Shown: piece after piece, positions 3,629 through 8,430 of the stretch
Layout: the number at the start of each line of letters is the position of its first letter
Position numbering within the stretch: the first letter of the stretch is position 1
Assembly (NCBI GenBank): GCA_937892665.1
Contig: CALBJF010000021.1
Location: 1 to 10,390, forward strand
Source of the DNA: an uncultured euryarchaeote
GTDB lineage: Archaea > Thermoplasmatota > Poseidoniia > Poseidoniales > Poseidoniaceae
DNA length: 10,390 bases
Reading direction: 5' to 3'
The notes under the pieces: model-generated
Databases searched by the model: none
Seen by the model: only the letters and a program-made list of their open reading frames with translations
What the model was told of the DNA's origin: nothing
Made by a program: the position numbers and the translations under genes

Positions 3629-4897
3629 CTACCTTTGAGTGTTTGGTGGGAACAATTCGAGATGATTTGACCCATAGAGGTGCAATGCCTCAAACAACTC
3701 ACCAATGAGGTATAGCGAACCAATAGCGAGAGTATATTCTGGTTGCAGTTGTTCAAGAAACAGTTTCGCCTCATGTGGTGTCGCTGCGTGAAGGATTCCT
3801 TGTTCACATGACCAATCAAGAGTTGCTAATTCAGAAAGAGGTACACCGGGATATCGCCCGGTTTGAGGTACTGTAAGCAAAACGTTCGATGGTGGATGCT
3901 TTTTGCAGAGTTCAAGCAGTGGTTGTACAAACCCCTCCAAATCGTCTTGTGGAGTGCAACCAAACACCAAACACCATTCTTTTTTTGAAGCCACATGATT
4001 GGTAATGGACGGTAGCACTCGCTTCAATCCACTCGGATTATGGGCAGCATCCACGAAAAGGGCCCCTCCCCACGACATCGGCTCGATATGTTGCATTCGA
4101 CCAGGCCAGTTGAGGGCATGCATCGATTCCTCTATCCACTCCGTATTGTAATTGAGGTGGTTCAAGACCACTTTTACCAACGCCAATGCTTCTTCTTCCA
4201 TTGAGGAATTTGAATCGATTGAAATCCACTCGACATTTGCAGACGAAGGACTCTCCCCAAGATGCTCTTGTCCAGCACGTTGTGTTTCGTTTTCAACTGC
4301 AGAACGAGCCTTAGTATCTTCAATCTCTCTGACAAAGATTGGTTTGCCTGGTCGAGCAATAGCTGCCTTTTCAGCAGCAATTTCAGCCAGTGTGTCTCCA
4401 AGAATCTCTCTATGTTCAAGTTGAATTGATGTGAGGAGGCATAGGTCTGCTGGTAAGATCCGTGTTGCATCAAAGCGCCCACCGAGTCCTGTTTCTACAA
4501 GGAACACATCAGGGCGAATGTCGCGAACACATAGGCAAGAAGCAAGAAATGTAACCTCAAAGAAGGTCAGTTCAATACCTAAATCGAGTTCAGTTTGCTG
4601 AATGAAGGACAGATAGATGTCGAACTGGTGTTCTGAGATGGGTCTGCCATCAATTCGAATTCGTTCCTCAAGACGAACAAGATGTGGTGAAGTGAACATG
4701 ACCGTAGTTTGATCCAATCGATTCAGATGTGTAGCCATGAAGGCACACGCAGTTCCCTTTCCGTTACTTCCTGCAACATGAATGATTGTTGATTCATAGG
4801 ATTGTATGAGGGATTTGTGAGCCTCATGCACGCGTTCCAGTCCAAGTTTCATACCACGGCTTTTGGTCAGGTCAAGCCACTGTCGGATACCGGACAT
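3629..4897 (-). CDS. folC: Folylpolyglutamate synthase / dihydrofolate synthase (Mur-ligase family)
   Basis: FolC-type ligases use ATP to attach glutamate to (dihydro)folate or dihydropteroate, retaining and maturing the cofactor. From the ATG at 4897 the product has 422 residues. It shows the P-loop HVAGSNGKGT (40-49), TSPHL (69-73), ETGLGGRFDAT (134-144), LEH (159-161, where DH is more usual), EKAAI (175-179) and the C-terminal-domain motif DAAHNPSG (283-290). Order and length fit FolC rather than the longer cell-wall Mur ligases. The frame is open to a GTG at 4927, but I prefer 4897 because a G-rich GGGGGAG lies just upstream (4907-4901) and the ten extra residues add no family feature. 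The gene leads a minus-strand pair with the deaminase. Archaea use either folate or tetrahydromethanopterin, so the cofactor actually modified is inferred, not seen. Confidence 0.92.
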   Translation of the reverse strand: MSGIRQWLDLTKSRGMKLGLERVHEAHKSLIQSYESTIIHVAGSNGKGTACAFMATHLNRLDQTTVMFTSPHLVRLEERIRIDGRPISEHQFDIYLSFIQQTELDLGIELTFFEVTFLASCLCVRDIRPDVFLVETGLGGRFDATRILPADLCLLTSIQLEHREILGDTLAEIAAEKAAIARPGKPIFVREIEDTKARSAVENETQRAGQEHLGESPSSANVEWISIDSNSSMEEEALALVKVVLNHLNYNTEWIEESMHALNWPGRMQHIEPMSWGGALFVDAAHNPSGLKRVLPSITNHVASKKEWCLVFGCTPQDDLEGFVQPLLELCKKHPPSNVLLTVPQTGRYPGVPLSELATLDWSCEQGILHAATPHEAKLFLEQLQPEYTLAIGSLYLIGELFEALHLYGSNHLELFPPNTQR

Positions 4898-4900
4898 TCG

Positions 4901-4907
4901 CTCCCCC
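4901..4907 (-). promoter_or_regulatory. Putative ribosome binding site deciding the folC start
   Basis: On the minus strand GGGGGAG is followed by three bases and then the ATG at 4897. It is the only G-rich element near the folC start. It favours that ATG over the GTG at 4927, which would place this element inside the coding region. The spacing is short for a GGAG core but acceptable if the run of five Gs pairs with the 16S tail through a G-U wobble. Confidence 0.45.
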
Positions 4908-5000
4908 AGATTCTTCGTGTAGGACACTCATCATAGGTGTGGCGATAGACGATTCTTGCTATGGTTGCGTCGATGTGCTCAAATGTGTTCCTCGTCTGGC

Positions 5001-5005
5001 AGGAG
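5001..5005 (+). promoter_or_regulatory. Shine-Dalgarno site selecting the start of the presenilin-type protease
   Basis: AGGAG ends 10 bases before the ATG at 5016 and only one base before the ATG at 5007. Aligned to the anti-Shine-Dalgarno sequence, the 10-base distance equals that of serS (7141), the 56-residue protein (9418) and the phosphatidyltransferase (9653). I therefore take 5016 as the start. The frame itself extends back to a TTG at 4956. Confidence 0.5.
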
Positions 5006-5015
5006 CATGAGCGAC

Positions 5016-7130
5016 ATGAACGGAGACTTCCGCCGCCAACTTCCATCTATGATTGGAATGGCCTCGATGTTCTTGGTTACCATCTTCCTTGCTATGTTTA
5101 TCCGTCCTTGGTACGATAAGGCTGGATTGCAAGCGTTCGGAGCTGAGGGGGCATCGCAGTTACGCTATATCGCCCTTGAATTGACGATGATTTTTGTGTT
5201 CACCGCAGCGATTCTCGCTCTCGCCCGTTACAAGAAAGAGTGGGTTATCAAGTACGGAATCATGGGCATTCTCTTCATCGCCTTGATGTATGCAAGCGTA
5301 CCACTCGCTCATCAGATTATGGTCGATGACACTGTAGAACCCTTCGAATATGAATCAACAGACTTCGTAGAGGCTGAATACTTGACTGAAATTGGTATGA
5401 ATCAATACATTGATTCAGTTCGCAGCAATGAAAATGGAATTATCAACAACACAATCAGATTAAACCAATTTGGAATGGATGAGCCGATTTGGACATCTGT
5501 CATTCCTCATGGAAACGAAAGTTATGAACTTGCTAAACTTGTTGTTGCAACGGGTCCAGATACAATCACAATCAACAATGGGGCACTGATTCAGACCCTT
5601 TCACTTACGGATGGGACTCTTCTCTCAACCTACGAGTGTTTTGAATACGATGCTGAAGGGAACATTTTCCCTCGTGTTGAATTTGGATGCATACTTGCAG
5701 TTGAAACAAGCGACTCTGTTTACATTGTCGATGGCGGAGAGAAAATTTTTCGTTTTGCAACCTTTGATGAAGCACCTAATATCATGACACTGCAGGCTGC
5801 CTGGCAACTTCCAAGCGAGATGAAAGTCGTCGATGATCTCATTGAAGCAGAATTACTTGACGACACCCATCTGCTTCTTGTTAGCAAGGAAATGGCTGGT
5901 GTTATAGAACTGGAAAAAAGCGCTCAAATAGGGGAAATTGGTTCAGGATTCCAACAACCTGCGAACGTTCTCATCAACGCAACCTCGAGTGCAAACTTCT
6001 CAGCAGCCGATGTAGGCTACTCCAATGTCGCTGATGTAACGATGAGCGAAGCAACGAATTCCAACCAACTTATTGTCCTAGGAACAGAAGATGGAGACAT
6101 CATGTCTTGGAATTATCAACCCGGTAAAGAGCCACTTGTCGTCGAAGAAAGCAGAGTATCAATCCCTGATTTCGCAAATCAAATCAGAGACGTTCGATTG
6201 ACAGATATTGACAATTCAGGTTATACTGAACTGTTGATTACAACTGGGGATGAAGCACGACTCTTGTATGGATCGAGTATGATTCAAAGATTGATTGTTG
6301 ATGTGGCTGAAGGAGAAAACGTTGCAGTTGCCTTTGGCGATACGCCGAAAGATGCAGCGGATGACACGACACATCTCTACGCAGTTGCTATCGGTGAAAA
6401 CTATTCAACAACCAAAGGTGTTGTCGAATCCTCGATGTTCCTAAGTGGAGGAATTGTCTTTGAGGACATTCCAACATTGATTGGGTTGCTTGTAAGCATC
6501 ATTTTGATGATTCTGCTGTACGTTCATAGTGAATGGTATGTTGTCAATACAGTAGGAATCCTTGTCGGTTCTGGTGTCATCGTTATGCTTGGTGTATCCT
6601 TTGTTCCTACTTTGATTATGGTGTTCATGGTCGCCGCAGCGATATACGATGCGTGGGCTGTGTATAAGTCGAAACACATGCTTGATCTTGCTGATACGAT
6701 GATCAATCTTAACCTTCCAATTCTCCTAGTGGCGCCACAAGGCTCAGATTATTCGTTCAGAGCAGAACGCGCACCTCTCGGAGATTCTGATGTCGAACCT
6801 TCGACTGAGATTCAATCATCATCGCAACCTCGTGAGCGAGTTATCAAGAAGAGTAACGATGCAATGCTGATGGGATTAGGCGATGTTATCTTCCCAGGTA
6901 TGCTGGTTCTCTCGACACTGCAATACATTGGTGGCGATGATGGCTGGATTATGGCCATCACCACACTGATCGGCAGCCTCGTTGGTTATTCTATCCTCAT
7001 GTGGTATGTTGGACAAGGTAAGGCACAAGCAGGCCTTCCACTCCTCAATGGTGGAGCGATTCTTGGTTATGTTCTAGGTGGATTGATGACCATCGGAATG
7101 GCTATGTTCCAATTCAATATCAGTTTGTAG
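5016..7130 (+). CDS. Presenilin/SPP-type intramembrane aspartyl protease (A22-like) with large ectodomain insert
   Basis: Presenilin-family proteases cleave membrane-spanning segments with two intramembrane aspartates. Numbered from the ATG at 5016 (704 residues), I see nine hydrophobic helices near 12-30, 52-72, 78-98, 485-504, 510-529, 530-550, 615-637, 644-664 and 674-698. Helix 6 ends in YD (Asp545), helix 7 carries GLGD (620-623, Asp623), and helix 9 starts with GLPLLNGG (673-680), the archaeal form of the PAL region. The helix 6-7 loop (551-614) is hydrophilic with an LPILLVAP patch, as in archaeal homologues. Typical archaeal presenilin homologues are about 300 residues. Here roughly residues 101-478 are inserted between helices 3 and 4, predicted outside the cell. 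The insert is beta-rich, with a DIDNSGYTEL calcium-loop-like motif (397-406) reminiscent of FG-GAP/VCBS propeller blades. serS follows after 10 bases. The protease call is firm by motif; substrate and role are unknown. Confidence 0.85.
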   Translation: MNGDFRRQLPSMIGMASMFLVTIFLAMFIRPWYDKAGLQAFGAEGASQLRYIALELTMIFVFTAAILALARYKKEWVIKYGIMGILFIALMYASVPLAHQIMVDDTVEPFEYESTDFVEAEYLTEIGMNQYIDSVRSNENGIINNTIRLNQFGMDEPIWTSVIPHGNESYELAKLVVATGPDTITINNGALIQTLSLTDGTLLSTYECFEYDAEGNIFPRVEFGCILAVETSDSVYIVDGGEKIFRFATFDEAPNIMTLQAAWQLPSEMKVVDDLIEAELLDDTHLLLVSKEMAGVIELEKSAQIGEIGSGFQQPANVLINATSSANFSAADVGYSNVADVTMSEATNSNQLIVLGTEDGDIMSWNYQPGKEPLVVEESRVSIPDFANQIRDVRLTDIDNSGYTELLITTGDEARLLYGSSMIQRLIVDVAEGENVAVAFGDTPKDAADDTTHLYAVAIGENYSTTKGVVESSMFLSGGIVFEDIPTLIGLLVSIILMILLYVHSEWYVVNTVGILVGSGVIVMLGVSFVPTLIMVFMVAAAIYDAWAVYKSKHMLDLADTMINLNLPILLVAPQGSDYSFRAERAPLGDSDVEPSTEIQSSSQPRERVIKKSNDAMLMGLGDVIFPGMLVLSTLQYIGGDDGWIMAITTLIGSLVGYSILMWYVGQGKAQAGLPLLNGGAILGYVLGGLMTIGMAMFQFNISL

Positions 7131-7134: not shown

Positions 7135-7140
7135 TGAATG

Positions 7141-8430
7141 ATGCTTGATATCCATTTATTCAGAGACGAACCCGACCGGATTCGTGCTGATTTCGATCGT
7201 CGCAGCCTTCCCCATGACCAGATTGATAATGTTATTTCATTGGATGCGAAATGGAAAGACTTGCTCCATCAAACCTCCGATTTGAGACGTCAAAAGAATG
7301 AGGCTGCTCGCGGAATTGGTGCTGCTAAGAAGTCCGGGGATGAGGCTGAAGCACAACGTATTCTTGCAGAAGTTGCTGATTTAGGTTCACGCATTTCTGA
7401 AATGGAAGCTCAAACCACAGCCGTTCTTGAAGAGCGAGATGCTATTCGTATGCGGATTCCTAATCTCCTTCATCCAGAAGTACCATCTGGTGCTGATGAA
7501 TCTGGTAATACCAAACTGTCCTTGCATGGTCAAGAACCAACGTTTACGTTTGAACCAAAGACCCACAATGAACTGATTGAAGAGAATAAATGGGTTGACC
7601 TTGAACGTGCTGCAAAGATTACTGGAAGTCGATTCTTTTTCCTAAAGGGAGACCTTGCTCGAATGGAAATGGCTCTGCAAGCCTTCTCCGTTGATTTCAT
7701 TCAACAACGTGGGTTCACTCTGGTTCAACCCCCAGTTATGATGAATCGTGCTGCTTACGAGGGTGTAACTGACCTTTCTGACTTTGAGACAGTGATGTAC
7801 GGAGTTGAACCCGATGGCTACTACATGATTGCAACTGCTGAACATCCTCTAACTGCTATGTTCATGGGAGAGACAATTCCAGAGGATCAATTACCCATCA
7901 AGATGGTCGGAGTCTCCCCTTGCTTCCGCCGAGAAGTTGGAGCTCATGGACAATCGGACAGAGGAATCTGGAGAGTTCATCAGTTCACTAAAATTGAACA
8001 AATCATTCTTACAACACCTGAAACATCTTGGGAACTTCATGAAGAATTACTTCAAAACTGCGTGGATTTGTGGGATGCACTCGGACTGCACTACGAAGTT
8101 GTGAACATCTGTACAGGAGATATGGGTACAGTTGCTGCTCGCAAGTATGATCTCGAAGCATGGCTTCCTGGGGCGAAAGCATTCAAGGAAATTGTATCGT
8201 GTTCGAATTGTACAGATTACCAATCGAATCGCCTCGATATTCGATATGGAACGCCTGGGCATCCAAATCAACCTATGGTTCACACATTGAATTCAACTGC
8301 AGTAGCGACTTCAAGGGCTCTCGTAGCCATTATTGAGCAAAATCAACTTGAAGATGGTCGCGTCAGAGTGCCAGAAGCCCTTCAACCCTATATGCAAGGT
8401 CAAGACACCCTTGAACCGTGCAACTGGTAG
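7141..8430 (+). CDS. serS: Seryl-tRNA synthetase (class II, canonical type)
   Basis: This cytosolic enzyme charges tRNA-Ser (and tRNA-Sec where present) with serine. From the ATG at 7141 it has 429 residues, normal for the family. The N-terminal part (about 1-105) begins MLDIHLFRDEP and is rich in charged heptads, the coiled-coil arm that grips the long variable arm of tRNA-Ser. The catalytic core shows motif 1 around GFTLVQPPVMMN (191-202), serine-site TAEHPL (232-237), motif 2 with CFRREVGAHG and RVHQFTKIEQ (261-287), and motif 3 with NSTAVATSRALVAIIE (384-399). The coiled-coil arm excludes the rare zinc-dependent methanogen-type SerRS. The AHG/RVHQF wording of motif 2 is like archaeal canonical enzymes. 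An ATG at 7138 precedes the chosen one in frame, but the Shine-Dalgarno spacing and family N-terminus favour 7141. The gene is probably co-transcribed with the upstream membrane protease. Confidence 0.96.
   Translation: MLDIHLFRDEPDRIRADFDRRSLPHDQIDNVISLDAKWKDLLHQTSDLRRQKNEAARGIGAAKKSGDEAEAQRILAEVADLGSRISEMEAQTTAVLEERDAIRMRIPNLLHPEVPSGADESGNTKLSLHGQEPTFTFEPKTHNELIEENKWVDLERAAKITGSRFFFLKGDLARMEMALQAFSVDFIQQRGFTLVQPPVMMNRAAYEGVTDLSDFETVMYGVEPDGYYMIATAEHPLTAMFMGETIPEDQLPIKMVGVSPCFRREVGAHGQSDRGIWRVHQFTKIEQIILTTPETSWELHEELLQNCVDLWDALGLHYEVVNICTGDMGTVAARKYDLEAWLPGAKAFKEIVSCSNCTDYQSNRLDIRYGTPGHPNQPMVHTLNSTAVATSRALVAIIEQNQLEDGRVRVPEALQPYMQGQDTLEPCNW

Follow-up and report, generated by a model that had tools for sequence, protein, structure and literature searches.

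The stretch of DNA analysed here (the window, 10,390 nucleotides; contig CALBJF010000021.1 of assembly GCA_937892665.1) comes from an uncultured euryarchaeote of the family Poseidoniaceae in the order Poseidoniales, also known as Marine Group II. It carries a gene for a PSH-type (family A22) intramembrane aspartyl protease in which a 380-residue domain, predicted to be a beta-propeller, lies in the loop between transmembrane helices 3 and 4. The core is an ordinary PSH and the insert is a known fold type; what appears new is the nesting of one in the other. We consider the chances about even that this is an archaeal PSH with a propeller on its outer face that helps to select the membrane proteins that are cleaved. 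A sequence-only reading of the window had proposed such a protease and held it to be unlike known archaeal homologues. Its account of the core, the insertion site, and the predicted propeller fold and outside location stood, and its claim of uniqueness among archaea fell. Its further idea, that the insert is a substrate receptor or size gate which makes the protein a self-contained gamma-secretase-like machine, is a hypothesis.

The membrane core

The frame on the forward strand (4956-7130) is open from a TTG at 4956, with plausible starts at ATG 5007 or ATG 5016 and a stop at 7128-7130; the product has 704 amino acids counted from ATG 5016. Pfam model PF06550 (SPP) covers residues 487-691 (E = 1.3e-45), the NCBIfam PSH model, with its cut-off at 125 bits, reaches 217.5 over two stretches, and the solved PSH structure 4hyc is matched at E = 3.8e-32. 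The gene is the single SPP match in the window's genome, which is 82.78% complete.

The structure model (predicted template modelling score, pTM, 0.59) contains nine long helices (Table 1), as the sequence-only reading had expected, and has a PSH fold, with the alignment to a solved PSH spanning residues 10 to 690 of the model. The motifs were found where that reading had placed them: YD (544-545) lies within helix 6, GLGD (620-623) opens helix 7 and GLPLLNGG (673-680) lies within helix 9. YD, GLGD and GLPLLN are each conserved in 54/54 rows of an alignment of own-family type, which holds the window protein, six proteins from databases and 47 rows from named loci, with near copies counted. The protein thus has the A22 motifs, YD and GxGD in adjacent helices and a PAL-like motif near the C terminus. 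Because the aspartates are conserved and the predicted fold is that of PSH, proteolysis within the membrane is likely; PMC2947513 reports intramembrane proteolysis for the PSH of Methanoculleus marisnigri.

Two further observations concern the core. In one own-family PSH (L214, G106:C38) an Ala/Thr/Gly-rich stretch greatly enlarges the helix 6-7 loop on the cytoplasmic side. PF01080, the eukaryotic-type Presenilin model, weakly matches 37 of 60 alignment members (best E = 3.2e-4) and may mark a bridge in sequence from PSH to presenilin.

The insert and its fold

The insert is almost entirely beta in the model and close in length to the roughly 375 residues first estimated. Structure prediction of the insert arranges seven four-stranded blades in a ring, so that the models give a propeller inserted in an intact presenilin/PSH core, as had been proposed. 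A second AlphaFold model, built with 11 rows, had a mean predicted local distance difference test score (pLDDT) of 61.0, with the membrane core largely below 60, and was used for the insert only.

Family profiles link the insert to FG-GAP propellers in part, through its relatives. FG-GAP_3 was weakly matched (E ≤ 1) by 12 of the 60 alignment members, the best at 0.0015, a match that may come from six other-lineage rows inside that alignment. Among ten relatives scanned from outside the order, seven had FG-GAP_3 within the insert at E ≤ 0.01, three of them exceeding the cut-off, and two (P0134 and P0208) were without any propeller match. Two profile sets of FG-GAP-tagged inserts, E1 and E2, were also compared with the others. 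E2 gave 82% against the Poseidoniales inserts of both families together, 64% against the window's own family and 86% against its sister family, over 53-68 columns that are out of register and so do not amount to in-register homology. E2 gave 95.2% against clade B, 93.9% against family f18 and 85.7% against f8; E1 gave 88.0% against clade B and 0.2% against f11. The DUF11 control profile gave 0.1% against E1 or E2. Before these sets were added, a first round of comparing profiles had joined the own and sister families (99.3%), f18 and f8 (77.9%), and f11a and f11c (98.5%). From the Pfam matches of relatives and the mixed E2 and E1 links, the insert is likely, though not proven, to be of FG-GAP/VCBS type.

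A calcium-loop-like motif and the side of the membrane

The motif DIDNSGYTEL, noticed in the sequence-only reading as calcium-loop-like, occupies residues 397-406 and begins in an inter-strand loop. D397 is present in 54/54 rows, D399 in 52/54, G402 in 51/54, D or E at position 405 in 54/54 and S401 in 44/54. The usual own-family form is DxDxSG, and one such loop was noted. It stands out because it is near-fixed in an insert that averages only 26.2% identity to the window protein (41 rows with core identity below 80%). In integrin-like VCBS propellers a calcium loop of the form DxDxDG joins strand A to strand B (PMC8023676), and the DxDxSG loop may likewise bind calcium, to judge from its sequence.

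Exactly two cysteines occur in 51/54 inserts, and the cores are cysteine-free in 41/54. Averaged over the 54 rows, the helix 2-3 loop holds 3.8 K+R, and the insert holds 13.0 K+R vs 64.2 D+E. The inserts average 5.9 N-glycosylation sequons and shuffled versions 3.4, which is suggestive only. Given the charge pattern and the cysteine distribution, an insert that lies outside the cell and carries a disulfide would be the simplest reading for the own family; the outer location claimed earlier is likewise predicted from charge and homology.

Distribution and synteny in the Poseidoniales

Sixty genomes of the order were sampled, 30 from the own family and 30 from the sister family. PSH was present in 59, and the insert profile matched 36: 30/30 in the own family and 6/30 in the sister family. 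Eighty named loci were taken as the best of 216 by PSH match. In 79 of them the gene after PSH is that for SerS, and the remaining one ends inside PSH. The order Lhr-like helicase, FolC, PSH, SerS was found in the window and in the sister loci examined, one insert-bearing and three insert-less. This common gene order makes the insert-less and insert-bearing forms syntenic orthologues where checked. PSH synteny stops at the order level: a contig stretch of G042 had none of the tested neighbours, and G095, of the same class, had the helicase only.

That the frame is an assembly chimera or a fusion of two genes, a danger raised in the sequence-only reading, is highly improbable, and this explanation was rejected. 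Core and insert share a single open frame in 78 of the 80 named loci, the other two (L083 and L149) being cut pieces; the loci have the same neighbours, and other assemblies hold full-length copies at 98-100% identity. No free-standing insert gene was found in the 60 genomes; the 38 matches listed all lie at PSH genes, some of them cut by contig ends.

Two observations concern insert-less sister-family PSH genes. In L166 (G150:C17), some 45-50 additional residues, mostly hydrophobic, separate helices 3 and 4 and may form added membrane helices. Genome G147 has two different insert-less PSH genes (L159 and L160) on two contigs; its listed contamination is 3% and it may be a mixture.

Inserts elsewhere in the Thermoplasmatota

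The sequence-only reading had stated that archaeal homologues lack such an insert, which proved wrong for part of the phylum. An SPP match was present in 333 of 389 sampled genomes of the phylum. Sixty-four genomes were searched again, and large inserts in the helix 3-4 loop were found in at least 13 genomes from six other families (f8, f11, f18, f26, f28 and f33), the genes of G027, G036, G051 and G055 being cut by contig ends. A search of protein databases with the PSH core, limited to hits of 369-1174 amino acids, gave 82 proteins, of which 50 have extra sequence in the helix 3-4 loop, 28 have none and four were unassigned. The extra sequence is 226-375 residues long in 49 of the 50 and 87 in the other. 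Propeller-type Pfam tags (FG-GAP, BBS or related) are already borne by 45 of the 82, and many (e.g. among P0137-P0180) carry the public name 'presenilin-like A22 family membrane protease'. With such inserts and tags in other Thermoplasmatota, the propeller-PSH architecture is not unique to the window, and automatic annotation already picks out its parts.

Other sequences also occur at this site. L213 (G160:C69), a PSH of another Thermoplasmatota family, has DUF11 (E = 3.4e-7) at about residues 108-203 of a 384-residue frame, a different outer domain in the same loop. The 87-residue insert belongs to P0195 and has nothing above the Pfam cut-off.

Three trees of the core require 2, 4 and 3 insert changes. 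With the three-change tree, a single clade uniting every insert-bearing row with the sister rows that lack the insert was not rejected (approximately unbiased test, p-AU 0.355), so that the trees are consistent with one gain or with several. In the four-change tree the sister rows without the insert fall into a single group (100/99), nested among rows that bear it; in the three-change tree, which includes fewer such rows, they group at 78/42 only. From this nesting, a single loss of the insert in the sister family is likely, though not proven. A common sequence origin of all inserts was not borne out by the profile comparisons, every first-round pair other than the three given above falling below 10%.

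Replacement of the propeller by a longer outer loop between helices 7 and 8 was also considered. The mean span from GxGD to the PAL-like motif is 41 in the own family (103/104 parsed), and in sister rows 48 with the insert (6/6) and 56 without (12/17). In other groups it is 37 (3/3) and 43 (11/30) in insert-less and 48 (16/18) in insert-bearing proteins, so that such a replacement is not general across groups.

Comparison with known systems

The PSH of M. marisnigri (MCMJR1; 4hyc, 4hyg, 4y6k; A22) has the same core fold and the same YD and GxGD aspartates, with 31-33% identity across the aligned core, but it is a 301-residue chain with no large helix 3-4 insert. Other insert-bearing PSHs of the Thermoplasmatota (e.g. 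P0137-P0180) have a large, often propeller-type insert in the same loop that differs in sequence from the Poseidoniales insert. Integrin alpha and VCBS FG-GAP propellers have a propeller fold and a DxDxDG-like loop between neighbouring strands; the window propeller differs in that one loop was noted, with serine usually at the third aspartate position, and in being nested in a protease.

Human gamma-secretase (presenilin, nicastrin, APH-1 and PEN-2) likewise combines a presenilin-type core with a large outer domain. That domain, nicastrin, forms a subunit of its own, and its fold is aminopeptidase-like and not that of a propeller. Profile searches found nicastrin in 0/20 relatives above the cut-off (one below it, at E = 8.6e-4) and APH-1 in 0/20, and the controls for both gave no match either. 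Among the titles and abstract openings listed, none describes a propeller-PSH fusion, although a survey of archaeal SPP/presenilin proteins (2021) that lies outside this search may mention inserts; no paper was found containing both 'Poseidoniales' and 'presenilin'.

Possible roles of the propeller

We propose that the membrane core would cleave transmembrane segments by the usual two-aspartate route, and that the propeller on the outer face would help choose which membrane proteins are cut, either through substrate binding or by keeping out proteins whose outer parts are bulky. The propeller would then play, in fused form, the part that has been proposed for nicastrin, whose steric hindrance contributes to selectivity according to PMC7248309. 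Such a role is suggested by the outer-loop position of the propeller and by analogy with nicastrin. Points for an active role are the retention of the insert in the own family, the constrained calcium-like loop and the DUF11 domain in the same loop of G160.

Several findings weigh against this proposal. PSH without the insert was found in 23 of 30 sister-family genomes, and these orthologues speak against an active role, as does the free variation of the insert (in the 41 divergent rows the core averages 68.5% identity to the window). The second aspartate of the calcium-like loop, D399, is replaced by Q or C in sister-family rows, so that conservation of the loop is not general. Nor is the C208/C225 pair a general feature: cysteines number 2, 2, 4, 6, 6 and 6 in six sister-family inserts, and among 14 counted inserts of other lineages five are cysteine-free. 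The fold itself is not seen by Pfam in the window protein, which had no propeller family match at E ≤ 0.01 and at E ≤ 1 matched only KNTC1_N, weakly (E = 0.086). E1 gave just 7.4-19.0% against the Poseidoniales inserts, all remaining insert pairs of the first profile round lay below 10%, several lineages being without detectable relation, and insert lengths elsewhere vary from 226 to 375 residues.

Two other roles fit almost as well as substrate selection. The propeller may be an adhesion or scaffold domain that positions the protease on the surface layer or a partner protein and leaves catalysis and substrate choice unaffected. Rapid divergence of the insert and the sister-family orthologues that keep the protease without it are in line with this, as is the statement in PMC8023676 that propellers primarily act as scaffolds. 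We regard it as rather unlikely, as the insertion is in the enzyme's own outer loop and not at an end, which ties the propeller closely to the core, and the insert is kept in every own-family genome sampled. A sensor or regulatory domain that responds to calcium, glycans or a surface ligand, and switches the protease with no contact to substrates, would account for a calcium-like loop nearly fixed within a fast-changing own-family domain. For the insert of P0123, a relative of this one, the best-aligning propellers comprise WD40 types as well as integrin chains and Photorhabdus lectins. The alteration of the loop in sister-family rows goes against a sensor, and the calcium loop of FG-GAP propellers is often purely structural; we judge this role unlikely.

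On the substrate-selection reading, the helix 3-4 loop could, more tentatively, be an evolutionary docking slot for ectodomains (propellers and, in one case, DUF11), in which the substrate-selecting function of nicastrin is fused to the catalytic subunit. If so, one polypeptide would do what gamma-secretase needs a complex for, and one marine order would supply natural pairs with and without the domain. Covalent fusion and syntenic orthologues of both kinds make the role of the ectodomain testable with single-chain enzymes. How presenilin-family proteases choose substrates, and to what extent an outer domain acts as a filter, has long been a question in connection with gamma-secretase. Presenilin is linked to Alzheimer's disease, and the Poseidoniales proteins may be a simple system, found in nature, in which to study how proteases of this kind select their targets. 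Poseidoniales are widespread and abundant in plankton, and would gain a surface-facing intramembrane protease of unassigned purpose.

Features of the window and neighbouring genes

Table 1. Positions in the window of the protease gene, its parts and its neighbours
Feature	Position	Strand	Basis or remark
Ectodomain-bearing intramembrane aspartyl protease of PSH type (A22), 704 aa	5016..7130	+	Pfam, NCBIfam and solved-structure matches
Predicted transmembrane helices 1-3 (residues 3-36, 49-72, 75-102)	5022..5321	+	Structure model; alignment of the core with a solved PSH
Helix 3-4 insert (residues 103-482), an ectodomain predicted to be a beta-propeller	5322..6461	+	Models; profiles link it in part to FG-GAP-tagged inserts of PSHs
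Cysteines C208 (5637-5639) and C225 (5688-5690), which may form a disulfide	5637..5690	+	Both in 54/54 rows
DxDxSGxxE calcium-loop-like motif, residues 397-405	6204..6230	+	In/after loop between predicted strands 390-396 and 405-410
Predicted helices 4-6 (residues 484-503, 507-526, 531-552); catalytic YD at 6645-6650	6465..6671	+	Model, row alignment
Predicted cytoplasmic loop, helix 6 to 7, low model confidence	6672..6872	+	pLDDT <50 at residues 579-616
Predicted helices 7-9 (residues 621-638, 640-666, 670-692); catalytic GLGD 6873-6884; PAL-like GLPLLN 7032-7049	6873..7091	+	Model, row alignment
Seryl-tRNA synthetase (SerS), next gene downstream	7138..8430	+	Profile match; synteny marker only
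FolC-like ligase, diverging upstream neighbour	3629..4927	-	Profile match; synteny marker only

At four loci (L100, L105, L108 and L109) FolC lies upstream of PSH on the + strand and is not diverging. The Poseidoniales PSH-SerS locus is also carried by L081, titled 'uncultured Rhodobiaceae bacterium', probably a mis-binned assembly.
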